Made by a program: the position numbers and the translations under genes. A stretch of DNA of 64,000 nucleotides from Tribonema minus (taxonomy: Eukaryota; Sar; Xanthophyceae; Tribonematales; Tribonemataceae), in NCBI GenBank assembly GCA_017506865.1, contig JAFCMP010000513.1:248001-312000 (forward strand), in the 5' to 3' direction. Below, in pieces: positions 1-60,880 of this stretch (its first letter is position 1; every line of letters starts with the position of its first letter). Under the pieces are notes generated by a model. That model searched no databases, was not told the DNA's origin, and was given only the letters and a program-made list of their open reading frames with translations.

Positions 1-596
1 GCCCCTGCTGCAGCAGGTGGGTCACCTGAAGTGCGTTGACCATCCTCAGCAGCATTATGTGTGCGATCACCGGTGTTTTCACTATCACTGCCATTGCGAT
101 CGTTGCAAGTGCGGCGCTGATGCTCACTGCTTTGATGGCTGTAATGGTGGCGTTGGTGGTGATGGCGGTGATGGTGGTCCCCATGCTTTGACTTGTCTTG
201 CTCAGCGGATGTAGCGGCAGCAAGCGGTGCGCTGCTGCTTGCTGCAGCGGCGTCATGCTGCGTGTTGAAGATCAACAGAAACGACCTTTTGAAATAAATA
301 AGGTTGTTTGACGCGTGAAGTGCAAGAGGGGCAAGCATATCGTCACAAGCCCCTGATGACAGGTGCCGATGCAGCAGTAGCTCCCAATAGTAACGCAAAT
401 CACCACAAACCACTGCAAAATATGAACTCTGCTCCACACACTGACGCATGATTATGACGCATGATTACGCAGTGCTTGTCCGTCGCGTTCACAAGGCATA
501 TGTCGCAGCGATTATTACTGACGGAGGTAACAAGAAACGCATGGAAAGTGCTGCAGACTGATCATGCATCATTGAAGTCGTTCTGCCCAAGCTTAC
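1..596. other. Left edge; 3' end of the minus-strand gene not resolved
   Basis: No complete gene is visible. The last supported minus-strand exon ends with donor GTAAGC at 596-591. On the minus strand around 200-130 a frame reads PPSPPSPPTPPLQP shortly before a stop, which could be the C-terminal tail, but I could not fix an acceptor in phase. The same stretch is a GGT/GAT-rich short repeat on the plus strand. Confidence 0.3.
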
Positions 597-3500
597 CGCT
601 GCTAGCACAGGCTGTGGGGACCCTCCCAGGCACTCTAGAGACTGCACAGGCGTGCCGCTGCCATGAACCTGGAACCCCGCCCAGAACAGCGGACTTGAAA
701 AAGGTGGAGCGCTGGAACGGCCACTCACTTGCTGCAAAAGTGCCTCTCTGCAGAGCATTGCGAGCAGCACAAGACAAGCATCCATGAATGATCACAGAAC
801 AACAGCAGATCAGGTGCCCAAGAGATGCTGTCTTCAGATCATAGCCTTGGCTGCCATCAGAGTCTATGCTTACTTTGCACTTCTACTGTACCTAGCAGTG
901 ATGCTGCAATAATGGGACCGTTCATGCATGACATCTTCTAGGCAATCAGCTGGGTAAAGGATGCTGGGACTGTCAAATGTCGGTTGTATGCGCGCATGGC
1001 CTTGTTGACATATGTCTGGGTTTGAGCATGTTGACAACACAATTGACGGATCTAACAGGTTGCCAAAGTGCTGTAAAGTCTGGGCGCAACTATGTGGCAT
1101 TGCTCCACATACAATTCGCATTGCGAAGTTGGCATGACGTTATGCAAGCTTACCTGACGGCCTTCTTATGGTGCTCGCCCACCCCTGTGGCACTCTGAGA
1201 CACAAAACGTCCGCACAGACACAGCAAGCGGTTAACCCCTTCAGTTGAATTTACGGCAGTTTGCCCCTGTGGTACGCGCAGAAAAACTGCACTCATCAGC
1301 ACCATTGGCTTCCACTCACCACACGTGTGGCGTCATGCATTGCAGGCGGTGCTGCTTTGTGCACATCAACACACATCTTGCATACACTCCATCAATGTGT
1401 TGTGCTGGTGCAAATGCAAAATGGACACAGGGTTGCAGCATCTGTGATGCACGACATGGGGATTATACAAGTCCCAAGCTGTTGACATAGAGGCACTGCA
1501 GTGTCCCTTGGTGTCGGAGACGCATGCGCGGCATGGCAAAACCCTGAAAAGGCAGCCCTCATGCAGAAGATGCTTGGTTACCTCTAATAACGCCATCAGG
1601 TCCTTCAGACTATATCCTTTGATGCACAACATCGCCTCCCTGCGCATTTTCACAGCGAACAAAGGATCAAAAATGCAAGTGAATGCCTGTCTAGCAAGAT
1701 GGTATACAGAAGCAGAAAGAATAGCGCACTGTGATTCTCTCACTCGCGACACTTGCTGCTACAGTCTGACGCATGCAAACATTACGAATGCTACAGCAGT
1801 TGAACAGTTTTGGGGCTGCATTCTGCAAGTGCGTACATTGCCACTTCAAGTGAGATCCCCAATTGCTCAAGACCGGAGGTATCTGAGGGCAGCATCTGAT
1901 ATTTGCTATTGCGGCAATTCAATTCTATGAATTGGTACTTGAGGCATCGAAACGACAGCAAACTTGAGCTAGTATATGATGTATCGTCTGCTGGCAACAA
2001 ATATCGCCAGTTGCCATTGATGACATTGCCAGAGGTTCGCATGCTTTAGTACCCACACGGTGCACAGACAAACTGCATGGCAACATGACTTGCCGAAGAG
2101 CTCTTGAAACGGGTCTGAGCTCTCCCTGTCTTGTCAGGTCCTTGAGCGCGCGATGGAACACTAACAGTAAGAGCACATTCACAGCGGCCAGCTCCTCCCC
2201 ACCCCAGAGGCAGCATAAAACGGTCTGCAATAACAGAGGGCAGACACACAATCAGCTCTGGACATGCAATGCAGTACACTGGATATCACACTGTTGTGTT
2301 GATTATGTTTGTTGCTTTAATTATGCAATATCGGCCCAAACATGATGCGGTCACTGACATTACTAACTGCAACAACACAACACGTAGTAGAAGTTTGTGT
2401 GATGCATGACTATCATGGCCAACACCCAAGTATCATAATGGTATGCCGACCATTAGCAGCACAGTAAGAGAGAGTTATGTCGCTATCAGATGTATTGTGC
2501 GCAGTTGATCGTTTCCACCACGCACTCAAGGCATCAGCTCCTTTGTCAAAAGTTGCCACTTCTATCACAGAGTAGTAGTCTTATTTTCAAGTAGACCTGT
2601 GCTTGCTTCATCAACAATTATGTTTTTTTCTGCCCAAACAATACAGGCATGCTGCAGCAATCAGAAAGGACACCTTCACCTGAACTCCTGTCGCCAACAA
2701 TGAGTCCACCGGGGACACTGCCCCTTCCAAAGGTGAAGAAGCTCCAGCCGTTTTGGCTATACATTCGTCTAACAGGCCTCCGTGAGATAGCACCAGAAGG
2801 CCGCAATGCTTCAACGACAGCTGTGCCAGTAGTTGACGAGCGGTTGAAAGCGCAGGGGACACGCCGGTGCTGAGACACACACACGACAAGAGCACAACGT
2901 CAAAGGGTGAACACGGTGATAATGCTTGTCAGTTCACTGACCATCACCAGTGGTACCGCAGTATACAGCAGTACACCAGTACACAGAATGTTCAAGTACC
3001 CACAGAGTAAAGTACCTGTCAATGGCGACATCAGCTGATGCAGCTGAGATTGTGCCCCCGAATAGACACTCCAGTCGTTGCAACTCGGACAGGGGGCAGC
3101 ACAGGTGCAGGCAGCGGACATGCTCCAGCTCAAGACTGGGGCCACCAAAGGATTCCTTCCCGTCGATCCTGGAGCCATCTGCAGGAATGACAACAGAATG
3201 TGCAGAATGGTTCAGTGCAGCAATTACAGCCCATGCAATGGGTGTGAGGTGGCTCCCGCTTGATCGAATATGAGGTCATGAGTTGGACTGCAGATACCTT
3301 GGTATTGCTGTACCGCATCTTGGTTGATTGTATTTACTTGACTGCCTATCATGTAGTAAGCATTGCAGCCTCACATGCGTTGCCATAAGCATGAATGGTT
3401 TTCGATTCAAGACGTCCTTCGTGCAACGCACCCTACTCACTCCCACAAGTATAGGTAGACATCACATCAGGCATAGCAGCTCTTTGTTGGCTTGTGCTTG

Positions 3501-4644
3501 CTGGATAAAGCAACCCCAAATTGTCAAGCTAGGCTTTGGCGCATGCACAAAAACAGCAGCCAACGTCTCAATGGCAATTTTGCAGTGAAAACTGACAGTC
3601 CCTGTGTGCTCTCGACTCCCATAAGCATCGCCAACTCATCGTCTAGCTGGAAGTTTTCAACCGCAAGCTCGGCAGCCCGCAAACCATTGCTTCGGCAAAC
3701 GAACCAAACATGGTCCCATTATGCCGAACCAAACATGATCCCATCATGCCAATCTGGGTTGCCGAAGCCAACATGCGCATAACTGGCTTGTGAGCACAGG
3801 TGTATCATCAAGCTCTGCAGGATTCTCACCTGTGTAGGCAATGGTCCCTCCAAGGCCACCAATTCTGCGACCAGCTGTGCCATATGCTGCGGACCGCTGC
3901 AGTTTGATATGATCCACAGCGGCACCAAAACATGTCAGCGCGCAAGATGTAGGACAGTAGAGCGCGAACCTGTGCTGCTATTAATGCAGAAGTTTCGATT
4001 GGCCTCAAAGGGTGTGCAGGTTCTGTGCTTGATGCAGGCAGTGCTTGTGATGCCAGTGCTGACTTACGGCTTAGAAGCACACTTTCTTCAATTTGTTTTG
4101 ACTACAGCACAGCTTCAAAAATTGTGGTTAGCTCAACTAAAAATCAGCTTTCATGAAGCATGTGCAAGTCATGCACGTTGCTAGTCTGCAGGTGTAAGGA
4201 AGGCGCCTGACAGTTTCACAATGCGCCCCATTGATCAATGCTGAAAACATAAGGTGAACAATTCAGAACAGTGTGCAAGATCATTTTTTGCACAGCAGTC
4301 TAGTTTTGACCGTTGTGTCTGCATTCTTTGCACTCGCTGTATTCCATGTCTGCCTTAATGCTGTGGGCACACCGAAGGCACCCGCTGGCTGCTGGGCCGC
4401 GCCACATGAGTGGCATGCTCATACATACCTGACATAAGTACTGTACTATAAGGAAGTTCAAAGGTCAGCATACCTGTGCAGTGACCAGCTTGAAGTCCTC
4501 ATTGCCCCCTTCCCACACGCTGCTCACCACATCCACCTCAGCCCCCCAAATCGTCATGCTGGCGCTGCCGTCACCTGTGCCAGCGCTGCCACCTCCTGGC
4601 GAAAGTGGTGGCAAAACCTTCTTGCCACCCGCACTGGATGGCTT
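597..4644 (-). other. TPR-CHAT gene: CHAT domain exons with substituted catalytic dyad
   Basis: Four exons match the ordered landmarks of CHAT domains. Exon 3178-3016 gives VRCLHLCCPLSEL, at the place of the His-bearing motif (typically hlACHG). Exon 2869-2680 gives CGLLVLSHGGLLDE, at the place of the Cys-bearing LVLSACxTG motif, and ends SLLATGVQ. Exon 2224-2090 continues TVLCCLWGGEELAAV and FHRALKDLTRQ, the 'AGvxxVvxSLWxVdD' and 'fyraL' region. Exon 731-597 gives SSPLFWAGFQVHG, the terminal 'yWAgFxlxG' strand. Phases between the first three exons agree (2 then 0). The dyad positions read Pro and Gly instead of His and Cys. Exons 4644-4474 (ending EGGNEDFKLVTAQ) and 3886-3830 precede the domain. 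A possible extra exon lies near 3.6-3.7 kb. The 3' end after 597 was not resolved. Confidence 0.75.
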
Positions 4645-7600
4645 CTGGGTCGTACTCCCACTGCTTCCAATACTGCTGGGCGAAGCGCTTGTCTTGTCTT
4701 GTCGTGCTTTGTCGTCTGGCTTGGCCACTATGCAGCAGCACCCGTTGTAAAAACTGGGTGTTTCCTGGTCGGCAGCAGTGCATACGCATTGTTGTGAGCG
4801 TTGTTCACTCAGAAGTTGCAGTGCAGCGAGGTGGGACGTTGTCAATGCTGCATCGCGCATGCACAGCAGGTGCCTACTGTCAACGGAATCGCATTAGTTA
4901 ACGTAATCGAACAGCTTGCGGGTAACCATAACCAGACTGTGGAATTGCATAGGGCTTGGGTCCTTATTCAATGAATGACTTGCCAGCGTACGCGTAGCAT
5001 CAGCACTATGCCAGACTGGAAGATTCTGAGTCAGGACATCTGTGTTTCCCATTGTCATAGACCTGGTACGCCGTCAATGATGAAGCCAGCACTCTCCAAG
5101 GAATCTACCTCAAAATGTGAAGCATGGTGGGAAGAGCCAACTGGTGATATGAGATCGCGCATGCACAACATCAGAACAACAATGGAAGGAAGTGTGCTTA
5201 AGATTGTGCCAGTGATGAAGTCCCCAAGGGGGCCCCCTTGAACCACACATTCAGATCGACATGCTCACAGGACCGGTTACACAAGTCATTTCACTGTCAT
5301 GCCTCCAAGAAGCTACACTTACTGGAAACTTTTTTTCATCAAGCTATAACCTGAAGCTGTTTGCGTACTGGGTTCGCGTATAAGGTCACACCATGGCCGT
5401 CACTTGTGTCTATTATCCTAATTCACTGTTGGAAAAGGCTCACCTGCAAGGCAGCCACAGCTTGTCTTTCGCAAAGCTCCAGCAGGTGAACAGAGGTGGA
5501 GTAGCGCACGGCGTAACTGTCCGCAACGCACTATGCGGCATCAACCAAAACAGCAGCAGCAGCAGTCAATGGCTCAGGCATGAAGCATGCTTCAACATGT
5601 GCCATGTGTCGACCTCATCCCAAAGTGAACACGACAATTCACTACTGCCCATTACCAGCATCGAATAAAGCACCGCCTATAGTAAAGCAACTGAGTTGGT
5701 TTCTGATACTTGACTGCGAAATTGCACGCATGTACTGCCGATGATGGCAGCGCAGACCCCCACATGGTTGGCTGACAACGAGGGGGAGGAGGCCCGAAGG
5801 CCCTCTTTTCGGCACGAAGCAGATTGAACTCTTCTGAGACACGGGGAGGGGGTAGGGCAGGTACATCGAAACACCCCGATGGTGTAAGCGAGACTCTCTC
5901 TCACCGTCGTTGCATCGGCCCAAAAGCCGCAACAGAAGTGGGAGGAATCATCATGACCAATGCCATCTACCAAAATGAGAAGGGAATGGTTTGTGTATAT
6001 GCTTGCGCTCGTTGAAGCTGTGTGAGCATTCGGCCACTTGATTGACGCTGCATTAATACATGTGCCTGCTCGAATATAAATTATGCACAGCCACAAAAAT
6101 GATGCCAACAGCAAATGTTTCACCCACATAGCTTGTTTGAGGGATGCCAACAATAACGACGATCACCTTTCTTCACAGTCTTCATTCCACAATGCAGAAT
6201 GTTGCAACGCGCTTGGGGGAGTAAAGACCCCTATTATTGTACCTGCAGGCCATCCTCAGCCAGTGGCAAAGCGTGAACTGGAATGGCGACAGTAGCGCCA
6301 TGCTGCACCACCACCAGCTCCCTAACCATTGGTGGCAATGCACTCAAGACCTGCATGTGAACAAGACAGAGAGAAAACGAAAAATTCAAAGGTGCAGCCA
6401 CAAAATCATTTGACTTCCCCTGGACTATACACTTCAAACTGAGGCATAGCACCTTCATGTGGCTAACGGCATGAATCACATCAAGAACAGCACAGGACAC
6501 ACACTGCATGAGTCTTGGGTGTCGAGGCATCACTATTGCGTGGCTTAGTATGCAAACCACGTGCCCTGACTACACTCAGGCCCTGACGCACCGTTCTGGT
6601 GCTGTTGGCAGATGGCATGACATGCTGCCATGCGGTGCAAGACAAAGCGCAACACTGCGTGGTCACAGAAAGAGCAAAAGTGTATCAGTGCAGCTGCAGC
6701 GATGCATCGTACTGCAATTTGCTTTGCCGTGCAGGAATAGATTAACGCCATCAGGTCGGGGTGTGGTCTGCCGATGCGACGATGGTGGACCATAATGAAA
6801 ACATGTATTGCAGGTGCCTTCTGGTTAAAGAAGCAGACACCTTATGGCAGCTCTGCTCTGCACCAGTTAACCCTCCCCCCCCCCCCCCCCGCGTACCGTT
6901 CCGCAGTTGATGTTCACTCATTGCACAAGTGGCAGGTGGACGCATTCAGTGTTTGCATCATTCTGTAGGATTGCAAATGAATTCTTTTGGCATGGCATGC
7001 CTTCACAAAAGTTGATGTTCACCTGTTCTGTGTTGAGGGATACAGAGAGTGCTTGAAGGGCGCCCTTGGCCAATGCCACTCTGTCCTTCAGTGTTGGCGC
7101 GCGCAGAGCTGCCAACCACCCTTCTACCGCATCCCTGAGAGATCCACAGGCATTGCATCATGACAGCAGACCAGAGTTCATGTCACAGCACGAATGACCT
7201 CACAAGGAACAGGTAGAGCACATGGCACTTTCTTTGTGCGTTAAAAGCTAGCAGATAGCATTCGTGATGACACCAAATTGAACTCTATCAAGATAGGGAT
7301 GTGTGTAAACCATGGTAGACACGACGTGTGTAGACCTCGCAAAGCGTTGTGGGAGCATGCTGTCCTCCAATATTGTGCTTGGCATTTGAGCAGAGCAGAA
7401 CGGGGCGTCCTGCGCACACAGCGCGACTGACATAACAGAGCTGACAGGGAGCAGTTGGCAAGCCCTTGCATAAAATATAGGTGTGAAACGATCACTACAG
7501 GCATGAGGCTACAACTTCAGCTGTTTTCCTGACGGTTGCAGATAATAGATTAAGGAATCTGCAGCACTCATCACGACTACTATCGCATGCAACACTCACT

Positions 7601-10600
7601 TGGAATTCCGCCCCTTTCCGTGCATACTTGCCATGTACACTGATTCTTCATTGCAATCAACACAAAGTCAGGGCTTGAACCATGCAAGGACATCACCTAT
7701 TCCACTTCCTCAAGACTGCGCCTCTACGTTTTATGGCTGCAGCATCACCTCGAGGCTTGTGGAATGCTAGTGAGCGGCAAGTGAATCGAATTGTCTAGAA
7801 CAGAGAAGCACATTTGCCTTCTGTGTCGTGCCCACCTGTATGCAGATGCCCCTTCGGCACCACTGGAGAGCACACGCACACGCACTGGTCCTGCCCATAA
7901 CAATGGATGACACAGGCAGGCAGGTTATGCAGACTGATTTTGATTTGCCAATCAACACATGAAAATTTGAACTGAGATATAGAGCAATGAGGGAATGACT
8001 GTAGCATACAACAGTGAGTTGCTACTCAACTATGATCAGCGATCAATTGAAACGTTTCAGCAGTGCAACGTAAGTAGAGTCAAGTGCCTCATGGTGGTAC
8101 TCAACGCCCGCCCACTCTCCGATCACCTGCGTATTTGATGTGCAGAAGTGAAGTCAGGAGCGCAACCAGAGAGCTGCACGAGGAACGAGGAAAAGTCAAT
8201 CCGCCAGTGGTGATTCAAGTCATTTGTGCATCTGCAACGTGTGCTGTCACCAACTTCACCACTTGCTGATGTGCGACAATTCAAGCCTCAAAGTGTTTTG
8301 CTACCATGTGTTTTGCTGACACAATGACCAATACTACTTCAACATATGAGGTGTTCTTTTGCATTCCACAAGGTGACATTGTCATCAGCAGCCAAGACAC
8401 TCAGTCCCAGTGCAATGAGCTAAGGATGATCAACCAGCCCTATTGCAATGGCGATCTGATGTGACTGTCATGTCCGCTGTGCACTTCGTAATAGCCATGT
8501 TGTGCGCATGTGGCATATCAGTCCTTTCATGCGCATGGCCATGACGAGCACAGTAGCGTTTTTCTATTGCAGTCAGCAAAGTACCTGTATTGAGCGGTGC
8601 TGCACGTTGCTTTGAGGACTCTGTTGTGGCTTTTGGCGTGTCTTGGCTTGTGCCCTGAACGTCCGATGGTATCGTGCTGCTGAACAGGGCACGGAGGACA
8701 CGACAGAGCAGACCGCGCAGGTGATGGTGATATACATGCACCAGTCACAACACGCAAGTCACACTTTTGCTGCATATGCTATGGAGCCCTACAATCATGA
8801 CTGGGGTTGCCGGAACCGTAAATCATAAACTTACGGTACGGAAATATACGGCGTATGATACGGCGTATGTTTGAAATGGCATCGTATATTCCGTAATTTA
8901 CGGTAGAATTTTACGGTCGAACTTTTCGTGCCCATTTTTTTCGGTACGATTTTATTACGGTGACGTGGATGATGCAAAACAAACAGGAGTGTGAGATGGC
9001 GCAGTGGCGTGATGGCGATGGCGCCAATGCTCTTAGATCTCCTCAGCCTGGCACAGTCAGCAAGCCGCAAGCGACCTAATACGCCAAAAAAGCCGAGTGG
9101 ACAAAATTCTTCTCTGCACCACAGTGTAGCGACAAGCATGTATGCCAGCAGCCATTGCGCGCACTAACGCTGAGCACATCCACAGCAGTGAAGGCCAGCT
9201 GCCGGGGCGCAGACGAGGCAGCAGCAACACAATTCACAATTGCAAAGCCGCTTGACTCGGCGCTTCCAAAAGCAAAGCCAGCGTGAGTGAGCCGTATGCC
9301 TTGGCTAGATTTATGTTACGTGGCTCTGATACGTGGCTCTGCACCTGATCGAACACCCACACTTCAAGCGAAATGTTCAAAAGCGCTGGCATGGCATGGC
9401 ATGGTGTAGGCATAACTAATTTAATGATGGCATCTTCACCATCGTACTTTCTGCTTCTAGAAGTATTATTTATGATTTTAAGTAAGCTGTACCCATCCTC
9501 ATTGCCGACATTAAGTGCAGTGATCTTTGGTAAATGCTTGATGCTATGCTTGCTTGTCATTAATTCAATAAGTTGGCTCACGCGGTGAGGATTGTGCATC
9601 AAGTTGAAGTTAACAATTGTCTTACTATGTAGTAGTACGCTCTCGTGTAGTCATCTGTGCCTGTGTTACCATATGCAAGGCGAACCATGTAACGTACATG
9701 CATATTAATAACTGCATAATTACGATAAGTACGGCACGTACGGTTTACGGTTGGGAGTACGGTTTTACGATTACGGTCATTACGGTAACTACGGTTGTAC
9801 GATCACAGATACGGCATACGATTACGGTTACGGTACGGTACGTTTACGGCCTACGGAGTATATTTTCAAAAACCTACGGTTTTGGCAACCCTAATCATGA
9901 CCGGGCATGCATTGCGTTCAGCGTTGCAACCAGATGTCAATGGTATGCTTCTGCTGGAGCGGTTCATGAAAAGCACTGTACCCAATCACCCTTGCTCATC
10001 ATTTTTGTGGCCAGCACTGATTGTAACCCTCATCAATACATGTCAAGTGTGAAGGAGTTGTTTACAGACAGTTGTATCAGCCAGTCATTTCTTCAGCTTC
10101 CGGTCTGCACTGACCTGCTGGCGGGAATTGCAGCTGTAGCGTTGCCGTCCACCTGCAGCAGGAGTAGAATGCCCACAGTGAATGCAATCAGCAAAATGGC
10201 TTCTAATGAAATGCCTAGTGCCTCGTGTAAGAATTCTCACATGCCAGCATTTCGATTGCAGTCATCAACAAGCAAGCAAATCGCACGCAAACCTCTTGAG
10301 ACACATGACCTGCTGTCAGCAAGGGCAGTCGCATACCAGGTACAAACAACTATGTCAGTGCACGAAGTGCTACATTGCAAACCAAGCCTAGAAGTACAGT
10401 CTAGTGGTCAGTCATCGATGGAGAAACCAGCACAGTACATGCTGCACTCTCCTACCGCAAGTGCGCTAAAACATTTTGCATCTGCAAGCAGCTGATGCCG
10501 ACAACTGCATGTGGCAACCGCAGAGAGTGCCTTGCCTGGGCAGGGCTTATGGACTGATCACTGCTGCTCCGCCTTGACTTTGCAATGATGCCCTTTCTCG

Positions 10601-13600
10601 CTCGCGCCAGAAGGCCCGCAAATCTCCATGCTCCCAGCAGGTTGGACAACCTTGCTTGTCCAGGCCGGTGCTGCGGAACAGAAGTGCGCACAGATCAAGA
10701 AATATTGCCATCAGAGTGCATGTTAAAGTTTGAGAAGGTCTTGTCTTATGGTCTCAAGCATGAGGTGGCAAGAAGCATGGACTCCGTCAGCATGCCATTG
10801 AGTACTGAGTCTCTTGTCCAACAGAGTGAAAAGCTAAAAAGAAAATCAAATCTCGCCGTACAGCTCCGCAGAGCAAACTTCAGCAAGAAGCAGCAGCATC
10901 CTAAAATGTAATTGGGATCGCCATCAATACGCAAATTAATGTGCAGACAAAGGGCAGTAGTTTTGTAGCCATGCAACCAGGTAACGGCAGCCGCAACAGG
11001 TGTGCTGCTGTGGAGGACTAGCTATTGCAAGATCAAACAGCTGGCGCAAATCAACAACACCACACATCATTCACACTGACGCCTCAATATCGACAGTACA
11101 TCATGGATGCTGCGCTTCATACTCGTATTGAGGGCCACAGCCAGTTCATGTTCAGGTTCACTGACACGCCTTGTGGATGTCGTAAATGCGATCATGAACA
11201 GGGCACGGATGCATGCTTGTGCCACAACTACTTCAAAAGTTACACAATGGTTCAGAGAGCGTTCTAATGAACAACAGCGACCACAAATATACCGCCTGGA
11301 CCATTCAAGGCACGACTTGTGAACATGCACACCTGCTGCGCAGCCTTGCTGGCGTCTCCTCGGTCATCATCATTGGCGTCAGTGCCGCCAACGCTTTCTC
11401 TATACACCACCACACAGCACAGCGCAGCGCCGCCAACTGGCAGATCTTCGCACGTGCTGTCGATGGACGTCTTGCAGTTGATCGGGATCCACATTATGAT
11501 GGCCGTATAGGGGTCTACTAGGTATCCGAGGGACACGTCAGGGGGCTGTACCAGCGTCGCTGGTGGGGGTGGACCTTGCTGCAAAACAGTAAGCACAAGT
11601 GGGCGGGGACACGGTCACGTTGGGAATGGGCAGATGCCTGAGCTGCAGTGCAGCGACTCAGGGACTTGACGTAAGGTGACTATGGACAGCAATACGCATG
11701 GCGCGAATCGCTGCGAAAAGTTGGAGAAAACCCGTGCGCACACAGACTCTCGTCAAGGCGTACACAGACTCTCAGCAAAGCGCCTCTGAATGTCTGTTGT
11801 GCAAGCAAGAGATTAGTACACTCGCACACAATACTCAAAGTTTTATGTAAATGGATTTGCGCTTGCAAGGGCATCCATGAGCGTGATGCTGCAGAAAGCA
11901 AGGCCACTGGATCGAATTCAAGGGCATAGCCGCACAGGTGAGCACTGTATGAGCAAGAACAATGGCAGCGCATTTGTCGTCGCGATTGAAATGAGAATTA
12001 TTTGTGGCAGGGACTAACTACACTTGCAATTGTGAATGGTTGCACTTGAAGCTTTGCATGTGTCGTTACAGTGGTACACCACTGCCACTCACATGCAACA
12101 AGGGGGGCTTCAAGAGGGCAGCCGGGGGGGTACACAGAAGGGGCAGGAGGGGGTCCAGCGGCTGTACTTGTGCCAGTGACAGGGCCTCCAGATCTCTCAC
12201 AGCAGCTGCTACCGCCGCCGTGCTGCAATACACAAGAAAAGCAGGACAGGTTGCATGACGCTGAGAGCTTCACATTAAAAGGACTGCTTGTCAAGTACTG
12301 CAAAATAATCAGGGTACCTTTACGGCATCTGGTCCTGTTGAAGGTGATTGTGGAATCACACTGCTGGGGTGCATGTGAAGCTATGAAACTCTGCAGTGAC
12401 TCTGACAAACAGGACAGGAATAACCAACTACAGCTACAGCACTGCATACAATAATGACAATGTCAATGCCGGCGCCCACGAACCAACCAATTCGCAGACA
12501 CTTTGTTGTCCACTAGAGATATTATCAGATATTGCATTCAGTATTGCCTCCAGATCAGTCGAGCTCTTTCAGTGCAGCATATCGGCACAGCACAGCCAGC
12601 AGATGCATCAACAGTATACCAGACCTGCAAGCACTCAGCAAACTTCAGCACTTGTGGCACTTCAAAGATCAGCTGACAATAGCGGTGCAATGTAGACGAC
12701 AGCGGCCTCAAAATTAAGAACCTTTAATTCTGAAGTACTTCAAGTACATGATACTTGAAGTAGTATTCATTGCGTAAGTTCAACATTTAGGCGTTTGGCA
12801 TGCTGAAACAGAAGCATGTGTGCAAACACATTTCTATTCCGTCAGTGACCTCAGCAGCAGTGCCCCATACAACAGCAAACTGTGTTGGCTGCCAAAGGCG
12901 TATCAATGTGCGGCTGCTTGGGGTTGAACGAACCTGAGGGGTAGAGTCGTGCTCCAGGAGTTGTCCCCCACTGACATGTCCAGCCTGGCCAATGCATGCA
13001 GCAATACAGAACAGGAAGCACACGAGATGAATCATGCCTGCAGTGGTGTCAACTGCGCATGACAGATGCCATTACACCATCTAGAAGTATTTGATACGTT
13101 TTAAACAAGTACTTGTTACGTTTTGAACAAGTACTTCTAGTTTTCCACTGACATTCAAGTGTGCACTCGGTCATGCCAGCAATTGTTACAGTGTTGTAAG
13201 GCAACACTCATGTGACTATCTGATATGCATTAGCCTGGTCAACGTGCCACCCATAGAGTGCCGAGGCTTGCGCAATTGCACCTATGGCGCTAGCGCACCC
13301 CTCAGCTTGAGAGTGCCGGTTCATCACTCCAATCAACAAATTGAGACTGTTGTACAGCCGTGCATATCTCGAAGTAGTGTCAATTCGTGAACTTTTGTGC
13401 AGAAACTGATTAACTGCCTGCCCTCACAGAATGCCAGCCACTGCTGAATGTCTGCGTGCACTGACAGCACCAGCACTTGCAAAACCACAGGCCCAAAGCA
13501 CCAGCACCTGCCAAGCCACAGGCCCGAAGCACCTCTGCTGTGAAACTGCAAGGTGACAAGTACTTTATGTATGAATGTATGCTCACCGAGGCAGCAGTAC

Positions 13601-22600: not shown

Positions 22601-25600
22601 TCACCCCTGAAGTTCAGCACTCTGAGAGCCACATTCACGTTCATGCACCTGCCATCGCATTGACCTGCCATGTGCTCACCTCCTGCCTCAGGCGCTGGTG
22701 CATGAGTCGGCCTGCTGCCCAGTGCAGCTGCTGCAGTGCCTTGCCCCTGTGTGGTGCGCAGCTGGTCACTGCCTCCATAAGATGGCCCAGGGCCGTGTCA
22801 CCGCCATCCGCCAGGGCTATCTGCAACGAGAGCACCAGCAGTTGATGTTTATGGTCTTCGGACATGATGCCGAGCAGAGCACACTTGAAAGGCTCGTCTG
22901 TGTGAGGAACTCGCAGTGATGCTGACGACAGCCACATCGATGTCGCGAATGGACAGTCTTCACTGCCCTTAAGTTCCAGTGGTGCAGTTCACATGTACCC
23001 ATAGCGAGATGCGTTGCGTGCGCCATGGCATCAGTACAAAGCGGTTCTGAGCTAAGCATAGGCATCAAGGTTACAGCGTGTGTGATGCAATGCTGACTGT
23101 GCACTTGTTGCATTCTACAACTGCAACAGTCAGTGCCGGAACCCCATTACTGCTTTTTCAAAGTACTTGGGAAAAATCTGCTTTGAATCTGTACTGCACA
23201 ACACTGAAAATCTCCAGTCAGTCCTGTTTTTGAGCCATGGCCCCAAAACTTGCACGCCGCCACTTGATTCTGAGCAATGCATCAGCTATGCACTTGAAGT
23301 AACTTCAGTGTACCTACCTCTTGTGTAGCGCGTGCCAGAAGCCTCTTGCCCGCAAGCCAGCCCGCCTCTCCCCGCACTACGTCTTTCACCGCCTCCTGGA
23401 GGTACTGGTCCGCCTGTGCCACGGATGCGGCATCACCGCCCATGGTGTTCGCATGCTGCAGCGTGCAGATGGCAGATACGACAGAGAGGGTGAAAACAGT
23501 CCTACATGATCTAACTGGAGGGTTAAAAATCCCTTGGTGGTACATGGCTGGAGAGAACGCGTGGGGGTACCACTGACAATGCCGCTGATATGGCACAGGT
23601 GAGGTGCTTGCGGCAGCAAATTCCTGTTGTCAGGGTGTTGAGAGTCTTGAACATGAGTGGGTGTCAGAGTGCATTCACCTGCACAAGCCTACATGGCACC
23701 TCAGCAACGCTCGTACTATCACAGACCAAGTCTCGAGCATTTTTTGGTAACACTTATAAGTAACAGCTCGGATCGTGCCTGCTTCAGTGCAACACATAAT
23801 CTGGCTTACCGCCCCAGGTGGTGCAACAAGTGCTCCGAAGTAGTTTGCAGTATATGTATGAGCGACACCAATTCACTTGCTCCATGCATGCGTACAATGA
23901 AGCACTTTCAAAGTAGGTATGTCAGGATCACATCATTCTTTAAAGACCAACCACGACGTCATGTTGACTCTCTTATCATCGTGGCAATTAAAAAGAACTT
24001 ATCCGCCCTGCGGAGCACAGCACCTTGAACAGCAGTACATCTGTCAACGCATCCATTTCATCTCATGATCGCACGCATGGGCGCAACTAACCCCTGCAGC
24101 ACACACCAAAGCATCATCAGCGCCTACTTCTAACGCACTGTGACACAGTCATGTCCCAAAGTGGGCTTGCCCGCATGTTGTGTTACCTGCTCCAGGCAGA
24201 GCGTTGCTGCCAGGCGCAGTGCCTCTGCGCGCGCAGCCTGTATGCGCTCTCGCCTGCCGCCAGCGCCGGCTTGTTCCGCAGGTCTCAGGTGTCGCAGCAG
24301 AATGCCTGCGGGCGACAATCCAGCAGTACTGCACCTGATGAGGCAACATGCACTATTTTTGGCAACGTGTGCTCCATGAATTGCAGCACCTGTTTTGCCG
24401 ACTGGACGCGCTTAGGTTCATAGGTGAGAGCCTTCAAGATGCCAGTACATGAGGTATGTACATGCGGTATAGCTACTTCTATAGATACTGCACGTTCCTC
24501 AGGGATAGTGCAGCATTGACATTAGCCTGCATTACAACTCTGCACCTTGTCAAAGTGCAGCACGGTTGGTATTGCATTGAAGGCTTGATTTTCGCATTGA
24601 GAGAGGCGACAACAGCTGCGTTGCAGAGACATTTGCAAGCCAGTAGGCCAGAGGGTAACCGCCAGGAAGGCATACGGGTAATGACCAGCGAGGCTCGGCT
24701 TGACACCAGGAAGAACAACGGGCAGTCTCACATTTGGACGCCTTCTGGGGTGTTGACTACTGGCAGCAACGTGCAGCACAATTGGTCAATGCAGTAAATC
24801 TGTGTGCATGTATAGGTATGGGCCGTGCATGGTAGCTATGCATGTCATATTGGTTATGATGGACATTTGTGCTGCCATGTGAGCCAAGGTCTTTCTGCGC
24901 CATTGATGAGTAAGGTGTTGCTTACCATCAATCATGCACCATGTGGTCAGCCAGTATCAGCAATCTCAGGGTATGAAGGCAGCCGGTCCATTTCTTTTAC
25001 AGGCAGGTGTTACAATATGGCGCTGTTGCACAATTAGGGTTGGATGTCCTAGTTGAGGTTTGCACTCCAGGTTGTAGTTGAAGTGCAGTTTTTGTTCGCG
25101 AGCTGTTCGAGATCAGCTCCAGATCATTGATGTAGGTGACTCAGCAAGCCTGAGCTGGCACGCGCAGGTTTGCTGTTGATAGTAATATCATTTCCTTCGC
25201 CGGCTTCCTTTCCGGCAACACCACCGTGTGTGTGTGTCACCTTGTGGCTGCCTCCGTCTGCCTCTGCGCTATGCATTGGTGCGGTGTGGCGTGCTAGCCT
25301 GCACGCGTGATTTTCCTTCGGTTATGAGCCTGCGCTCACGGAGGTAGCTAGCATATGGAAGGAAGTCCCCAGCTTTGACGCCACTGGGTCATCAATAAGC
25401 GGAAGGCGAGGCCGGCATGCGCCTGCGCCGACATGCACGGAGTGCATGAGCAGCTGGATCATGCGACTTGGAGCTCTGTTGTTCAGCCTGGGCGACTCGA
25501 GCGTGTCCCGGCGGGTACCGTTCATGCTCAACAGCAGCAAAGGTCCGCATGGCGAATCCAGGGAGATGACAAACTCGTCTGGAGATGCGAGGCAACAGGC

Positions 25601-28600
25601 GCTTCTTCACGGGAGGTTGCGGTGAGGCAGCATCAACGCATGTCATCCTTGACATGAGCAGGAGCTGGACAGCAGCTTGAAAACTGGAGTGGCGGGAGCT
25701 ACCGCAGGAGGTCCAGGTGGAGCGGATTCCCCTGGCTGGAGGGCCTGTTTGAGGCCGTGGCGATTTTCAAGGGCAAGTGTGCGCAGAGGATAGCGTACCA
25801 GGCTCGTGCGATTTCAGTGTGCCATTGCAGGGTGCAAAAGGCAGCCGGCAGTAGCAATGCCGATGAGTTATTTGAAGGTTTGCAAAAGAAGAGGGGGTCC
25901 TCAGTTGTGCAGTATCGCTTTTGCTTCGCACAGAAGAGGGGACCTCAGAAGTGCAGCAGTAGCAGTGGGCGAGCTTCGCACAAGAAGGGCGGCATACCCA
26001 GCAGTGCGTACAGTTTCGATGCCGTAGCTGAGCACAAGAAGCAAGGTTGCAGAAGTGCAGGTCAGCTGGCATGTGGTAATCGATTTCGAGGGCAGCGGGC
26101 ATTGTTTCCCTCAGAATACTGTTGTTTCCCCACAGCGGTCACACTGGGGAAAGGGTGTTGAAAACGGGGGTGCAGCATTTCTGGCTGCATGTAGTGAGAG
26201 CATCCAAACATCAGCATCAGGCTCAGATGGAAGTAGGCATTCAGCGCGTTTTGTCAGTCAAGCTCATGGGATGGAGCTTTGACTGGGGGAGGGTGTTACA
26301 ATATGGCGCTGTTGCACAATAAGGGTTGGATGCCCTAGTTGAGGTTTGCACTCCAGGTTGTAGTTGAAGTGCAGTTTTGTTCGCGAGCTGTTCGAGATCA
26401 GCTCCAGATCATTGATGTAGGTGACTCAGCAAGCCTGAGCTGGCACGCGCAGGTTTGCTGTTGATAGTAATATCATTTCCTTCGCCGGCTTCCTTTCCGG
26501 CAACACCACCGTGTGTGTGTGTCACCTTGTGGCTGCCTCCGTCTGCCTCTGCGCTATGCATTGGTGCGGTGTGGCGTGCTAGCCTGCACGCGTGATGTTC
26601 CTTCGCAGGTAGACACACTATTTATTGCATAGTCACAATGACACTTCCATACGCACCAGACTGGTCGTCCGGCAGGTTGTCATCGCTCAGCACCTGCATC
26701 ATACATACATACCCAACAAATATGACAGCGCACAAGGCCTCAGAGGGTGTACAGAAGCATGGCATCTGTACAAAAGCGGCATGTGATTTAAGGGGCGCAC
26801 TTGTGGGCTAAAAACGCCTTGAACGCAAGTTCAATTCCTACGGGAAGCACAATCTGAACAGTAAAAAACAACTAGCTTCAGCAACCTATAAAAAGATTTG
26901 TCTTTATATGGCTAGCAGCGTATGGACTCGCGAGGCCGTGCATTGACCTGGCTGCTGATACTGGTGTTGGCACTGCATCTGGTGTCCATTCTGCATCTGC
27001 AGGCAGGTGAGACGCAAAAGCCGCGCCAATCGGCCTTGTGAATGTGATGCGGCAGCTCACCTACCTAATCCTCACCATGATGTGAAGCCTTATCCTAACT
27101 GTAACCTCACAGGTATACTTTCTTGAGTGCCGTGTATGAAACATGCAGCCCTCCACTCAAGAAGCAACACGGCAGAAGAGGCGCACAGTTGAGCTTCAAC
27201 AATGAACCACTGCACGGCAGCAGCAGCGTGCAACATTCCAAAGCCTACTCCACAAGTACGAGGACACTGGATATCATCTGCCACGCATTGTGCTCTTGCT
27301 CAAATGACTTGTATAACAACATGTGCAGGTCATCTACTATACATACCTGCTCATAGGCACTGAGCGCTTCTTCGAGATGATGCACTGCCACCTCTTGACC
27401 TTCACCTGCAACGGACACACGTGAAGGGCATTCGTTGCTCAGTGCACACGTACATCTCCTAGTAAACCAGAGGATAAGCTGCGCACCAAGACTTGTCGAA
27501 GTGCTGGCGCGTGTAAGGGCAGTTCTCCTGTATGTATTTGCTGCATGATCCTCCCTTTGATGCTCGTTCATCTTGCACCATGCAGTCTCATGCCATGCCC
27601 ATTGTTTTCATTGAATTCAAGTGGCCAAGCATGGATGCCAGTGAGCGAATGTATCGTAGCGGGAATCTGCAAAGCAACACGTGCTGAGCCATTTGCGATA
27701 TGGCTTAAAGCTCATCAGCAAAGGTGTCATCTTGCCCCCGTCGCCATGGGCCATAGTGCTTGTAATGTCACAGCAGGGGCGTGGAGCTCGACAAGTTTGC
27801 ATGCTCTGGCAGGGAGATTAAAAGGCAAGAGCTAGGGCACTAAAGAGAGTGCTACTTCTATCATCCGCGCTAAGCATCTAAACCTAGACACTGTGCAGTG
27901 GTCCCATGCAGTGGCGCCAGCCTTGCGTGGGTGATCGGCTCCAGCGCAGCGCTACAAGAGGCAGCTAAGAAGCAGCATACGCAGTATCAAGTGCATCTAA
28001 GTACACATTATACTTTGAATGAGCACTCTGTAGCAGTGCTTACCAGCATCGATGTCTTGTCTGAGCAAATGTGCCTTGGCAAGCTCCAGCTGTGGCAAAG
28101 CATGGCATCAGTAAGAAGGTTGGAACATCAGGTTTCATCACTAGGGTTCACATTCATCGAAGCTTACTCTGTAGGCTCTATTACTTCTATTACAACACAA
28201 TGTTGACTGCGCTGCAAGATGTAACAAGAGATAGCTAGACGTTTTGCATGGGCTGCAGCACCACCCATGCATCACTCGTGACATCACTGGTGCAGGGCCA
28301 GTTTCACAACAGGCAGGCGGCACAGAGCGAGTGGAAGCATTAGACCTGGTGACAACCAGCAAGGTACAGCCTTGGCATCAAACGCTGTACACACATACTG
28401 GTGCAGGTGCCATTGAACGATTACACGTCAGGGAAGGGGGGAGGGGGGGGGGGGGGCTATGTTATGCGGCGTGGGATGCGGGATTCGTTATTGTCTACGT
28501 TTTGGCATTTCAGCCTTCGACAACCGCATTTCCTGACAAGATGATGCCACAAAATTGCAGGGCAGCTTCAATGAAGCGCAGCACTGCTACAGAGCAGTTG

Positions 28601-31600
28601 CCGAGATGCCGAAATCAGCAACAGCACACTAAGGATTACCTGCACGTCTGCATGCTCTGCCGGATAGGCCTGCTTGCTGAGTGCTCCAACGGCACACTCC
28701 AGATTGTCCATGGCTCGCGTCAGAAAACCTGCACGCCTGCGCACTGCCACTGCCAGTGCCCTCTTGTTGGTGGCGGCCTCTCGTTCTTCGCTGTCAAGCA
28801 TCAGCACTCGCAGGCGAGCATCCTGCGGCCACCACACATGCACGACATACCAGTTGAGGTTGTCAAGACTTGCCATTGTTGCGGGTGCATCACGTGGTGA
28901 GGACACTACGCATATTTAATTGCCCCGTAAGAAGGTGGGCTTATGATGGTTATCTGCAGCTGTACCTGAGCGCATGCTTGTCCATAGTAGAAGTATTATC
29001 AATGAAATGATATGAAGTGTCGCACGGCGCAGTCAGCTGGCTGCACAGCGCACTATAAGCTGAGGGCACCTGAAAGCGCATGCAGCGACAAATGTGAGTG
29101 CTGACTTCATTTTAGTTGCGCGGTCACTGCAACATTGGCTTCGGATGAAGACTGAGAGTATGACGCTGCATGAGATGCTGAGCAATGCGATACGTGACCA
29201 CGTTCTGACTGCAGTATTCATACCCTACATCAACGGTGTTTAATACCCTCACTACACTCTATCTGCAGACTCAACCTGCCAACAATTACCAGCAAACCGG
29301 CACTCACGGATGCCTTGTGGCATATGTTGCGTATCTGCCTACCTCTTTAGCGACAACTCTTGCCAGTGCAGCAAATGCCAAGCCCATGCCCAGTGCTGCA
29401 GTGCCCCACTTGAAAGGGTCGTCCTTGCTGCTGCAGACCTGCATCAGCAATGAGGGGGGGGGCGGCACCATGCTTTACACAGAGTAACAAGTAAAAGTTT
29501 CACGTAGTACGGTAGAAGAGTGATAAAGGTCAAAGCTAAGCATGAACAACACACAGCTTCTCTTGTTGCATGAGGAGTACGCAATACGTGTATGGTTGTA
29601 TGCACACATTTATTTGAGCTGTTGAACTGTTGACAGGAACAAGGGTGCTCACAAACCTCCACCGCCACACAACGCAGGCACACTTGGCCACAAAGAGTTG
29701 CAAACAGGTGTGCGAGGGATGGCACGTGTGTCCTTGGTGTGTACATGTACATCTACACGTGTCATGACACACATGGCAGAATCCAGGGGGGGGGGGCACA
29801 TGGAGGAGGACGTAGGGGAGGACCCCGAGATGCCATTTGGCGGCGGCGGCGTTTGAGTGGTTGTCGTTGCGACACTTTCAGACTGTCATACGACATGTAG
29901 ATTCCTTACAGCTACATGCCAATCATCTGGGCTTTTTCGCGCCCTGAGCGAGAATTAATACAAAGTACATCTACACTTAACGGCTACTATTGCCTGACAA
30001 CCCGTGCTTTGCACATGTTTACTAAACGACCTTGCATGCGGACACTACATACTAGTGTGTTGGACGCATGGCTCTTCCAGGGCTAGCGTCTATGTACAGT
30101 AAACCCCTTACGCCAAAGAGGCTGCGCCAGTCGCGCCAGCTGACTCGTGGAGTCTGATCAGCTGCCAAACTCGCTGCGCATATATACCGGTGTGTCGGCA
30201 CAATACACTAGTTCTGCTTGATGCACGTATGGAGCGATCATTCCTGCTCATGGGCGCATGTGCGTTGTATGGGTGCGCATCAAAACCGCTCTGAACTTGT
30301 GGTGGTGGACATGCAGTTGAACGCACCTGTAGTGTTGCGTCAAAGTGCTTCAGGCTGGCTTCCAGGCTCATGGACGCGCTCTGTGACACTCCAACGTAGC
30401 AAATGGCATCGGGTCAGCAACTCATACACTGGTGATGTAAATGATGTGGTTTACCAGACTCTGATGGATGTGCTCGCCGACAATTGTAGTCTTCCTCCCT
30501 TTCTACCAGCACAACAGTGTTGGCGAACGCACAATGAACACATCCTATCTCGTTCTGCACCATGCTGCTCATTGACAAGAATCTTCATGCTCAAAACAGC
30601 GTTTGGAAGGCAGATGCAGTGCTGAAGGGTTTAATATTCATAGTGACCCCGCTGAGCTGAGGACTTCATACTGAACAAACTTTGCACTTTGAGACATAGC
30701 ACGATTCCCCTGTCATGTTTCCAGGGTTGTTGCAGCTTGTGCAGCGCTCCAACAGCACGCTATGTGGGCACCATATTTGCTGTACATCAGGTAAAAGCCG
30801 AACAAATGATGCTGTGGGACTGAATGTCGATCAACTCCCCAAAAGACTGTCAAGTATGGGCATGTACATGCAATACGGGGCTGAGCGCACGAATCGGTGC
30901 TTGTATCTACTTGGGCACCAAACAGTCACTGCCAGCGCAAGGGTACATGGCCCAAACCAAGTGCATCATGCAGCGCGGCGTATGGGCATGGCTGATGGGC
31001 AAACTTCAAAGTTGTTGGAGTGTACATCGAAGTACTTCTTAAGCACGTGGACGGAGCACGTGGATGGAGACGCCAGTGGAGGTATGTATAGGGGGGTGCC
31101 AGGGGACAAGATGGCAGTACCATATATATCAGATGTGACATGGTGCTAGCATTCGTGATACATGGCAATGCTCAGCACATTGACGGGCCAGCAGTCCTAT
31201 GTTAGTGGTTTCATGATGACACGTGCGGTCACCATGAATGCTTACCTTCCCTTCCAGGGACTCCATACTTTGTCCATAGTACGCGATGCCCAGCTGCCGT
31301 CAGCCAACGAGCACACATCAAACAGCACAAATCAGTGCCCAGCAGAATGCTGTGCTTCAAAGTATGCCATGAAAGCATGGCAATGCAGCGGATATGTGAG
31401 AAAGCTCGAGCAATTCACCAGTACCATTGCCATGTGTTGCGCACCGTTCAGGAGCGTGCTGTCCCATAAATGGCTGAATGCTGGATTTCATGATTGCGCC
31501 GAAAATGTCAAAGTGCCAAACTCAGCAGCCCAAAGCACACGCTGCGTGACAAGATGCGGCGCAACGCAACCTATTGCTTTCAACAAGTCCGTACCTAACT

Positions 31601-33280
31601 GAACTCTCACACACACCAATGGCACAGCTCGATGACTTCTTTATTGCCTGCAGGATCACTGAGTATTAAAACCAGCTCATGCATAACACATCCTCCAAAG
31701 TATCCTCCTTCAGTTGCAACTCACAATGCTCACATATACTTCAAATTATGATCGAAGTGTACCTGCCAGTGGCCCAGGGCGTAGATGAGGGGTTTCCGGT
31801 CCTTTGGACACCCCTTGAGAGCGTCATCCCAGTATGCCAGCGCCTGCTCCAGGTCCGATGGCCCACGAGCTAGCAGCTTTCTGGCAATGTCAGCCGGAGT
31901 GCATCAACACTAATGTGTTTGGCGACAGGTGCGGTGTAAATGCTTCACATGCGTACACACTGGTAGCGATGCGCAGGGGAGCAGTCGTGACTACATGGCT
32001 GTCTGCAAAGCAGTACCTACACTGGTGCACATGATGAACCAGTAAGAGCTTTTTAAGACTGGTACGCTTGACGCTTGCTTGGCTACAGTGAGCTCCTGGT
32101 ACCATTGCACCAGCGGTTCAATATAGCATGCACAGCAGCACTGGCCTGACCACACACGGCATGCTCCTGCAGAACCCAACAACGTGCATCATGAAACACG
32201 GACTAAATTGGAAGCAGATGGTGTATCAGTGCCATGCTTTGCGAAATCAGTGCCCAGATGCCAGATGCCGCAAATACACATGTCCAGTTGCTCACACCGC
32301 TGCACTGCTGCTGAACGCTGCCATGGACGCCGCAGCTGAACCCAAGTGCGTTACCTGCGCCTGCCGCGCTGACGGACTGCATGTGTCAAGCGCTGATCAT
32401 CTTTGCCATCCACACCTCGCCTCTGCACAATTCTCAATCCAGGATAAGCTCCTATGACTCCAGGACCTGGTGCTGGTGGTTTGTCCTGAGTATTTGCATC
32501 TTGCTGCGTCCCACAGTACTGAGCACAATTTTGCCCGAGGAACCAAAGTTGTTTAATCAAGCATTCAGCCGGTACGCGGTCGGCGTACGCGCTTGCACAG
32601 CTTTCCCTGCTCGTGGCATTCAAACACTGCTGTTCTGCGCAAATTCTGCACTCAAGCATCTGCCAACAGGCCCAGTCTCATCATGGCCTATCACCCAGAC
32701 GAGCACCGACTCTGCTCAACAGAAGCAGAAAAACTCGCAGTGGGTAGGAAACATACGACTTTGACTTCAACTCACTTGCAGCGCTCCTCCTCCTCCTCCC
32801 GCTTCTGTTCCTGCAGCTGCTGCTGATGCCGACCATGCCCGCCCCTCGCAGCGTCTCGGACTGCGCACAGAGTATTGCACATGACAACAGATGCCATCAA
32901 AGGGCAGCATGTGGCAAGGATATGGTATATAAGTTATAATATAACTATCAGCAAAAGCGCTGTATTCTGAAAGTGCCGGCATGAGCTGCAAGGTTCAATG
33001 CAAGTGTTGCCCTTGCACAACGCTATGGGAATGCTGTTGTCGTCAATACCACCAGCTGCAGTTTACCATGACACATTTCTGGTTTGGACTGCCACTTTGC
33101 ATTACGTGCTGCTTTCATGCTCCTGTTGTTCCCACCATAGGCTTATGACTGGCTAATCGTAACCATCATAGCAGCCGTAACAATGATTGCTTACTGTCAG
33201 GCAAGAACTCCGCTGCTGCGCCAGTCCGGCCATAGGGATCCCGCGGACTCCAGCACGGTGTTCCATCGCCGGCGCTGTCT
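597..33280 (-). CDS. Giant multi-exon TPR-repeat protein with C-terminal CHAT domain (5' and 3' ends unresolved)
   Basis: Exons in transcript order whose GT-AG (one GC-AG) sites and codon phases fit: 33280-33195, 32860-32776, 32606-32576, 32422-32355, 31880-31763, 30380-30327, 29438-29343, 28822-28640, 28089-28044, 27405-27347, 26693-26657, 24305-24187, 23455-23318, 22820-22680, 21836-21699, 21008-20670, 19917-19765, 19109-18945, 17832-17544, 16984-16788, 16158-15884, 15313-15172, 14761-14645, 14201-14031, 13645-13587, 13545-13508, 12984-12934, 12222-12093, 11578-11333, 10670-10536, 8679-8585, 7134-7023, 6350-6243, 4644-4474, 3886-3830, 3178-3016, 2869-2680, 2224-2090, 731-597. That is roughly 1,690 residues. 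The phase chain is unbroken from 33280 to about 13.5 kb; a few exons are missing after that. TPR arrays joined to CHAT are known in bacteria and eukaryotes, where CHAT is a caspase/separase-like fold; the role here is unknown. It could be two adjacent genes, but the continuous phase argues for one. Confidence 0.72.
6875..6890. repeat. Homopolymer C16
   Basis: Sixteen consecutive C residues in an intron of the minus-strand gene; a comparable G14 run lies at 28443-28456. Confidence 0.9.
8794..8801. repeat. Target-site duplication, left copy (hAT element)
   Basis: ATCATGAC directly precedes the left terminal repeat and is identical to 9894-9901 after the right terminal repeat. Confidence 0.85.
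8802..9893. mobile_element. Non-autonomous hAT-type DNA transposon (1.09 kb)
   Basis: The left end reads TGGGGTTGCCGGAACCGTA and the reverse complement of the right end reads TAGGGTTGCCAAAACCGTA: imperfect terminal inverted repeats with T(A/G)GGGTTGCC shared. Both ends are flanked by the same 8 bp, ATCATGAC (8794-8801 and 9894-9901), the duplication length expected of hAT transposases. The first and last ~150-200 bp are packed with TACGG/CCGTA motifs in both orientations, like hAT subterminal transposase-binding repeats. Internally there is only a 122-codon minus-strand frame (9602-9234) that I do not recognise and no transposase signature, so the copy is presumably mobilised in trans. It sits between exons 10670-10536 and 8679-8585 of the TPR-CHAT gene. 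Confidence 0.85.
9894..9901. repeat. Target-site duplication, right copy (hAT element)
   Basis: ATCATGAC immediately follows the right terminal repeat and matches 8794-8801. Confidence 0.85.
13081..13140. repeat. 60-bp palindromic repeat with CTAGAAGTA ends
   Basis: The segment starts CTAGAAGTATTTG and ends CAAGTACTTCTAG, imperfect inverted copies of each other. Inside there are two direct copies of ACGTTTT(A/G)AACAAGTACTT. It could be a tiny MITE-like repeat or a hairpin. It lies in an intron of the TPR-CHAT gene. Confidence 0.6.
15736..15775. repeat. Tandem TTCAAAGTAC microsatellite
   Basis: Three consecutive units of the form (A/T)CAAAGTACT, followed by a degenerate AAGTATACTT. Intronic, between exons 16158-15884 and 15313-15172. 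The core AAGTACTT recurs elsewhere in the window. Confidence 0.7.
18945..23455 (-). other. TPR-CHAT gene: GGD-repeat helices and Ser-Pro/His-Gly-Lys repeat segment
   Basis: Three successive exons share the pattern G-G-D-x-A followed by an amphipathic helix: GGDAASVAQADQYLQEAV (23455-23318), GGDTALGHLMEAV (22820-22680) and GGDAAEVAMSLSGLKSM (21836-21699), all phase 0 at both ends and 46-47 codons long, so they look like duplicated repeat exons. The next exon (21008-20670, 113 codons) starts as a helix (WLAWIDRERAGIHLQLAIAH) and then becomes low complexity with recurring Ser-Pro ... His-Gly-Lys motifs (NSPHGK, NSPHGK, HSPMHGK, GSPVHGR, HSPAHHGK). It is followed by another TPR-like pair, DVLEAEDFLQKACSVL and WCAAACGDTAEATNLYTQ (19917-19765), and AAALLIAQLAFASDELN (19109-18945). 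The SP motifs resemble proline-directed kinase sites, which is inference only. Confidence 0.72.
25008..25320 (+). repeat. 5' LTR of the miniature LTR element
   Basis: 313 bp, matching 26294-26605 except for three visible substitutions and one T in a T-run. Begins TGTTAC and ends TTCG. Confidence 0.85.
26294..26605 (+). repeat. 3' LTR of the miniature LTR element
   Basis: 312 bp, about 1% different from 25008-25320, preceded by a purine tract and followed by CAGG of the target duplication. The low divergence implies a recent insertion. Confidence 0.85.
29759..29964 (+). mobile_element. 5'-truncated copy of the zinc-finger/RLE LINE
   Basis: These 206 bp match the 3' end of the LINE at 60.3-60.9 kb almost base for base: the CATGACACACATGGCAGA start, the long G-run, the GGCGGCGGCGTTTGA stop region and the 3' tail GCGAGAATTAATA. 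The insertion is flanked by a perfect 12-bp duplication, GTACATCTACAC (29747-29758 and 29965-29976). Truncation at the 5' end with an intact 3' end is the signature of target-primed reverse transcription. It lies in an intron of the TPR-CHAT gene, inserted on the opposite strand. Confidence 0.9.
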
Positions 33281-54764: not shown

Positions 54765-55033
54765 GATATGTGTGTTGTGTTGTAGCGTTGAAAAAGCTTG
54801 GTGCTTGTTGTTGTTGCGAGTGAGCGCTGCAGGCAGCGAAGCACATGTTCCGTGTTCTGAGATTTGAAAGCTCAGGTTGCAGTTGCAGTTTTTGCATTTT
54901 TTTATTTGCCCGCGGGGCCTGCCGTGGCTTGAAGCACAAACCAAGTAGTAAAAGTACATGCTGAAGTACAGCCTGCACGAGATGCGGATAGGTATGTAGC
55001 TGTAGCTTGTAGCACCATGGCGTAGCAGAGATC

Positions 55034-58187: not shown

Positions 58188-58194
58188 TACGCAG

Positions 58195-58490: not shown

Positions 58491-58499
58491 GCTGCAGAC

Positions 58500-60480: not shown

Positions 60481-60541
60481 CCTTACAGCTAGATGCCAAT
60501 CATCTGGGCTTTTTCGCGCCCTGAGCGAGAATTAATAAAAA

Positions 60542-60551
60542 GTACAAATCG
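60542..60551. repeat. Target duplication GTACAAATCG between tandem LINE 3' ends
   Basis: Follows the first LINE 3' tail and is identical to 60871-60880 after the second tail. Confidence 0.85.
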
Positions 60552-60870: not shown

Positions 60871-60880
60871 GTACAAATCG

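Follow-up and report, generated by a model that had tools for sequence, protein, structure and literature searches.

An intron-rich algal gene predicted to encode a helical-repeat protein with a degenerate CHAT domain

The minus strand of a 64,000-nucleotide stretch of the Tribonema minus genome (hereafter the window, C510:248001-312000) carries a real TPR-CHAT-like gene, seen as a chain of coding GT-AG exons with agreeing phases. We slightly favour the reading that this is a single intron-rich gene encoding a helical-repeat solenoid, a C-terminal, catalytically inactive CHAT domain and a His-rich tail, in a protein that would act as a scaffold similar to animal TTC28. The novelty is likely to lie in an algal TPR-CHAT copy with a degenerate catalytic dyad and not in the architecture, which is already known. 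CHAT proteins occur in the defence of bacteria, in cell death in fungi and in the division of animal cells, but the role of CHAT in eukaryotic proteins of one or two copies is poorly understood, as PMC12314368 states for the exact functions of TPR and CHAT in the human protein. If the algal active site is truly dead, the fold can persist for a job other than proteolysis, and a single gene offers itself for testing this.

Results

We trained a gene finder on 264 kb of the genome, the region of the CHAT gene included, and it scored the minus strand of positions 1-34200 of the window at 134.6 with 30 exons; the plus strand reached 16.2, and none of 40 dinucleotide shuffles exceeded 1.2. This bears out the preliminary description, in which a minus-strand exon chain with agreeing phases had been read. 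The splice sites learned in training were AG/GTGAG-like donors and TGCAG/ acceptors (the slash marks the exon boundary), a consensus which we take to resemble that of green algae. What had been presented as a gene hidden in non-coding DNA is merely an intron-rich one, the median gap between listed exons being about 700 bp. The size first given, about 40 exons and more than 1,600 residues, was not confirmed: the supported model has 27 exons (3,657 nt, about 1,219 residues; Table 1) and is tentative at the 5' end and at 18.9-14.8, 11.3-7.1, 4.5-3.2 (exon d) and 2.1-0.75 kb. When five CHAT exons were forced, the gene finder yielded one chain comprising solenoid and CHAT, with 33 exons (3,234 nt) at a penalty of 5.5 and 48 exons (4,001 nt) at a penalty of 3.5; 2224-2090 was left unselected in both runs, and 657-597 was taken in place of 731-597. 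Unforced, it found the CHAT exons only in part, without 2869-2680, 2224-2090 and 731-597, and continued the gene beyond the proposed stop. An exon of the d type is required, because a phase change from 0 to 1 must be carried into exon e. The end of the gene, formerly placed at 597, lies further out, as another exon leads from 257 to a TGA; the coding region thus extends 43 bases beyond the window edge, and a TGTAA is found about 80 bases 3' of the proposed TGA.

Table 1. Features of the proposed gene (positions of the window)
Feature	Position	Strand	Basis and remarks
N-terminal helical-repeat block	21699-31843	-	12 joined exons, 374 aa/1,122 nt, stop-free; phases, splice sites, score against plus strand and shuffles
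N-terminal block, exons 1-6	31843-31763, 31293-31246, 30380-30327, 29438-29343, 28822-28640, 28089-28044	-	
N-terminal block, exons 7-12	27405-27347, 26693-26657, 24305-24187, 23455-23318, 22820-22680, 21818-21699	-	
Ser-Pro/His-Gly-Lys low-complexity exon	20670-20963	-	phase 0 to 0; hand-read; no more than the 3' part (20761-20670) in gene-finder output
Helical-repeat exons 19917-19765 and 19076-18945	18945-19917	-	sole TPR-like match in 19917-19765
Exons 14761-14645 and 14135-14031	14031-14761	-	exons between 18945 and 14761 tentative
Exon set directly before CHAT core	11333-11545	-	putative placement; joint to 7134 requires one more exon
Helix exon preceding CHAT core, DAVEGWLAALRAP...	7023-7134	-	exon end is start of profile match
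CHAT exon a, ELVVVQHGATVAIPVHALPL	6243-6350	-	PF12770 join, bacterial profile; frame found blind
CHAT exon b, SYAVRYSTSVHLLELC	5444-5530	-	acceptor CATAG off consensus; weak in blind scan
CHAT exon c, Ser/Gly-rich insertion	4474-4764	-	acceptor GACCAG off consensus
CHAT exon d, small, tentative	3830-3897	-	acceptor candidates 3886, 3896, 3897; frame tentative
CHAT exon e, VRCLHLCCPL...LECLFGG	3016-3178	-	stretch for catalytic His strand; no His at site
CHAT exon f, LLVLSHGGLLDEC against LVVLSACETG	2680-2869	-	stretch for catalytic Cys strand
CHAT exon g, TVLCCLWGGEELAAVNVLLLLVFHRAL...ALRQ	2090-2224	-	donor uncertain; not selected by gene finder
CHAT exon h, domain end SPLFWAGFQVHG	597-731	-	possible start 747; frame found blind; exons between 2090 and 747 tentative
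Proposed last exon, start	1-257	-	His-rich tail; read by hand; TGA at L005:9958-9960, its last base the 43rd outside the window

By eye, the solenoid exons form pairs of alpha-helices. Their identity as TPRs is weakly supported: TPR_7 matched a single stretch with an E-value of 0.0047 (17.4 bits, cut-off 27.9), and DUF3017, an unrelated family, matched the solenoid with an E-value of 0.00075 (20.2 bits, cut-off 25) and, in a second search, of 0.023. The earlier designation as a TPR-CHAT protein thus holds for its CHAT half and is weak for its TPR half. The Ser-Pro/His-Gly-Lys stretch that had been called a linker is a good exon (20963-20670), but it sits among the helical-repeat exons and not at the junction of solenoid and CHAT.

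The assignment of the C-terminus to CHAT stood up to the Pfam search that had been proposed for it. Joined by hand, the hand-picked exons 6350-6243, 5530-5444, 4764-4474, a tentative small exon, 3178-3016, 2869-2680, 2224-2090 and 731-597 matched PF12770 over positions 22-288 of 289 (E 9.4e-11, 42.1 bits), above the curated cut-off of 24 bits; at E-values up to 1, Pfam listed no family but CHAT for these C-terminal exons. The last four exons of this join had already been assigned to CHAT; the join agrees with that, but three of the four were absent from the unforced gene-finder model. A profile built from 16 bacterial CHATs, with the algal protein left out, gave the CHAT part 48-50 bits, while 2,000 shuffles reached at most 7.8, and the LW and WAGF motifs are retained at the domain end. 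As a guard against selection bias, 8,704 open frames from the genome loci L001-L024 and the window were scanned blind. Three frames, 6569-6237, 5530-5426 and 791-492, were collinear with profile positions 106-137, 142-162 and 357-383, albeit weakly (E 0.064, 5.9 and 0.073, respectively); the scan of the 8,704 frames did not recover exon e, f or g, and four additional window frames were among the weak matches, without order. Searching 72,556 plasmid records with tblastn returned five matches, all weak (E 0.1-3), four of them to proteins with a CHAT or TPR-repeat annotation and the fifth to an unannotated record. A phmmer search of the CHAT part against the PDB gave one match, to a non-CHAT protein (E 0.32). 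The CHAT core contains a Ser/Gly-rich low-complexity insertion (4474-4764, minus strand), which is absent from the five bacterial relatives aligned.

The catalytic His column is occupied by His in all 16 bacterial CHATs and in the separase of this genome; the algal residue is Gly in each of three MAFFT modes and Pro (within HLCCPL) in a smaller alignment with five bacterial sequences. The catalytic His (HxxxH[GA]) is thus absent from the algal CHAT in all four alignments, in a region that is poorly aligned. The loss is read from such a region because the HMM skips profile positions 179-273, the middle of the domain with the His strand, which lie outside both of its aligned segments, and because the residues at the site differ between the reading by hand (HLCCPL) and MAFFT (LECLFGG). 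On these alignments, the active-site His has likely been lost.

For the Cys, which is likewise present in the 16 bacterial CHATs and in the separase, the profile aligned a strand of exon f with the catalytic strand, pairing LVVLSACETG with LLVLSHGGLL (LLVLSHGGLLDEC), so that the motif LSAC(E/x)TG appears as LSHGGLLDEC. The Cys column holds Ile in two of three MAFFT modes and Cys in the third, after a six-residue insertion, and falls inside a deletion of the HMM alignment; the catalytic Cys has perhaps been lost as well. The HG of exon f, formerly read as a mark of CHAT, falls on the very strand due to carry this Cys. As a control, the profile recovered VLMGCSSG from the separase and VFVSACHS from a CHAT-like exon of locus L001 with the Cys intact. 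Exons e and f each read as one continuous frame, so that their active-site motifs are independent of internal splice choices. Two His pairs can, however, be read between exons c and e, EHATHVA near 4417 and NHSAHS near 3209, the latter in a pyrimidine-rich stretch ahead of the acceptor; with the His region beyond the HMM segments, they make an unmodelled His-bearing exon conceivable.

The genome (158 Mb, 554 contigs) was also searched for further genes of the caspase fold. Separase (PF03568) was rejected as an identity of the CHAT gene, as the separase of this genome lies at C257:305904-307796 (best match 1.3e-58), with CGHG and GCSSG present. Elsewhere in the genome the CHAT family matched four loci, two of them above the cut-off: the separase (L002), the Cys-intact exon (L001), a weaker similar exon (L004) and L003. 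The CHAT-like exon of L001 (1480-1683, minus strand) has an intact VFVSACHS motif, and L004:1402-1635 resembles the downstream part of an L001-like CHAT gene. With a 926-aa query against the whole genome, 21 of 22 matches were the gene itself and the remaining one had an E-value of 0.586; no paralogue appeared among the matches listed, the search having scored the best candidates.

Discussion

TPR-CHAT proteins are known from animals, fungi and bacteria, which makes the algal gene a variant of a known architecture, less unusual than first stated. According to PMC12314368, most metazoans have one or two TPR-CHAT copies and corals hundreds, two genomes of Acropora having 276 and 304; CHAT proteases are also described from fungi, where one that bears TPRs activates a gasdermin in Podospora (PMC12881547). 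A search of the open-access literature found no paper on an algal CHAT gene; neither PMC8406250 nor PMC9145168 concerns one.

Since no His is found at the site, a partner-binding scaffold like TTC28 would fit the algal protein better than a protease, and it is such a role that we infer. The large solenoid would hold partner proteins, and the single CHAT domain between it and the His-rich tail would keep its fold, leave proteins uncut and serve as a module for binding or regulation. TTC28, an animal TPR-CHAT protein with an action on microtubules and a partner that holds it, would be the nearest functional model: in zebrafish, Ttc28 restrains the dynamics of microtubules, and Dachsous1b binds to it (PMC12132318). 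Like the metazoan proteins, which PMC12314368 reports at one or two copies in most species, the algal one would have a long N-terminal repeat solenoid and one C-terminal CHAT; unlike them, it has TPRs below Pfam significance, extra low-complexity stretches and a His-rich tail. A narrower form of this proposal, in which protease activity was lost and the fold kept as a caspase-fold pseudoprotease scaffold, in a genome that also holds a Cys-intact CHAT-like exon and an intact separase, appears to us evenly balanced.

Other known systems share parts of this design. Csx29 of the type III-E CRISPR system (Craspase) likewise combines a solenoid with a caspase-fold CHAT, but for the TPR-CHAT of Craspase PMC9729208 describes the dyad H585/C627 and an activation by gRAMP-bound non-self RNA, whereas the algal CHAT is without a His at the site. 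Cyanobacterial TPR-CHATs, on plasmids of Nostoc and Aulosira, are linked to the algal protein by the weak tblastn matches to CHAT- or TPR-annotated proteins, with HetF as a further candidate for comparison; bacterial CHATs differ from it in having both catalytic residues in the aligned copies and in being encoded by single open frames. Separase (Peptidase_C50) resembles it in its helical repeats and caspase-fold C-terminus (see also PMC9729208), but is a different gene in this genome and keeps both of its motifs.

An active TPR-CHAT protease with a displaced dyad seems unlikely. An insertion immediately ahead of the nucleophile would be unusual, and here the Cys would be that of LLDECIAKTAG after a short insertion, as in the one MAFFT mode with Cys in its column, while the His would come from a further exon, for which the HATH- and HSAH-like reads in neighbouring introns are candidates. 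The gene finder selected none of these reads as exons, and no modelled exon supplies a His at the site in any of the four alignments. The solenoid of such an enzyme would sense a signal and free the protease, on the pattern of Craspase or of the CHAT that activates gasdermin in fungi; the dyad present in all 16 aligned bacterial CHATs and the active TPR-CHATs on record (PMC9729208, PMC12881547) are consistent with this reading.

Two adjacent genes, a helical-repeat gene at about 33-14 kb and a CHAT gene at about 11.5-0 kb, would be rather improbable. Between 18.9 and 7.1 kb, where the model is tentative, the listed exons lie apart by gaps of 4.2, 2.5 and 4.2 kb, and plus-strand open frames occupy about 10.0-10.9 kb, both of which would suit a boundary there. 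Against it, a CHAT placed after a solenoid is an arrangement that recurs, and the gene finder sets no gene end between the halves, a point of little weight because it also overruns the proposed stop. We consider it least probable of all that the locus was once a TPR-CHAT gene and is now decaying as a pseudogene, as the degenerate active site, the lack of a second copy among the matches listed, the weak TPR signatures, the off-consensus splice sites of some CHAT exons and the introns with their 212-bp retroelement piece and recent 315-bp duplication might suggest, given that the coding score is strong, that the LW and WAGF motifs persist and that all 27 listed exons are stop-free, though selected as open.

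Genomic neighbourhood

Within introns of the gene, positions 25006-25320 and 26292-26605 form a direct 315-bp duplication with 98.7% identity, which contains two identical predicted exons, LARHTAPMHSAEADGGSHK. Another intron holds a 212-bp piece (29758-29969) that also occurs at 60335-60546 and 60664-60875 with 97-98.6% identity, which suggests a recent insertion; it is part of a repeat with which the retroelement at 60 kb ends. This LINE-like element (55000-60500, plus strand) encodes a reverse transcriptase (PF00078, 1.8e-10), and by eye its 3' part recurs at 2361-3053 of L001.

Two plus-strand open frames in an intron (10047-10911) look protein-like by eye; in Pfam, the first had no match and the second just SIDD_N, below the cut-off (E 0.018). 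The predicted exon 10152-10115 was rejected as probably an artefact, since by eye it lies antisense to an open frame of the plus strand. Next to the 5' end of this gene, a weak sulfotransferase match lies on the plus strand at 36081-36578 (PF00685, E 0.0044, below the cut-off). The plus strand also has, at 41923-42937, an exon with TPRs (TPR_1, 1.7e-9) that belongs to a neighbouring gene. That the DNA comes from a phototroph is indicated by a gene for protochlorophyllide reductase at 62.9-63.9 kb (1.1e-24 for the best match in the PDB).
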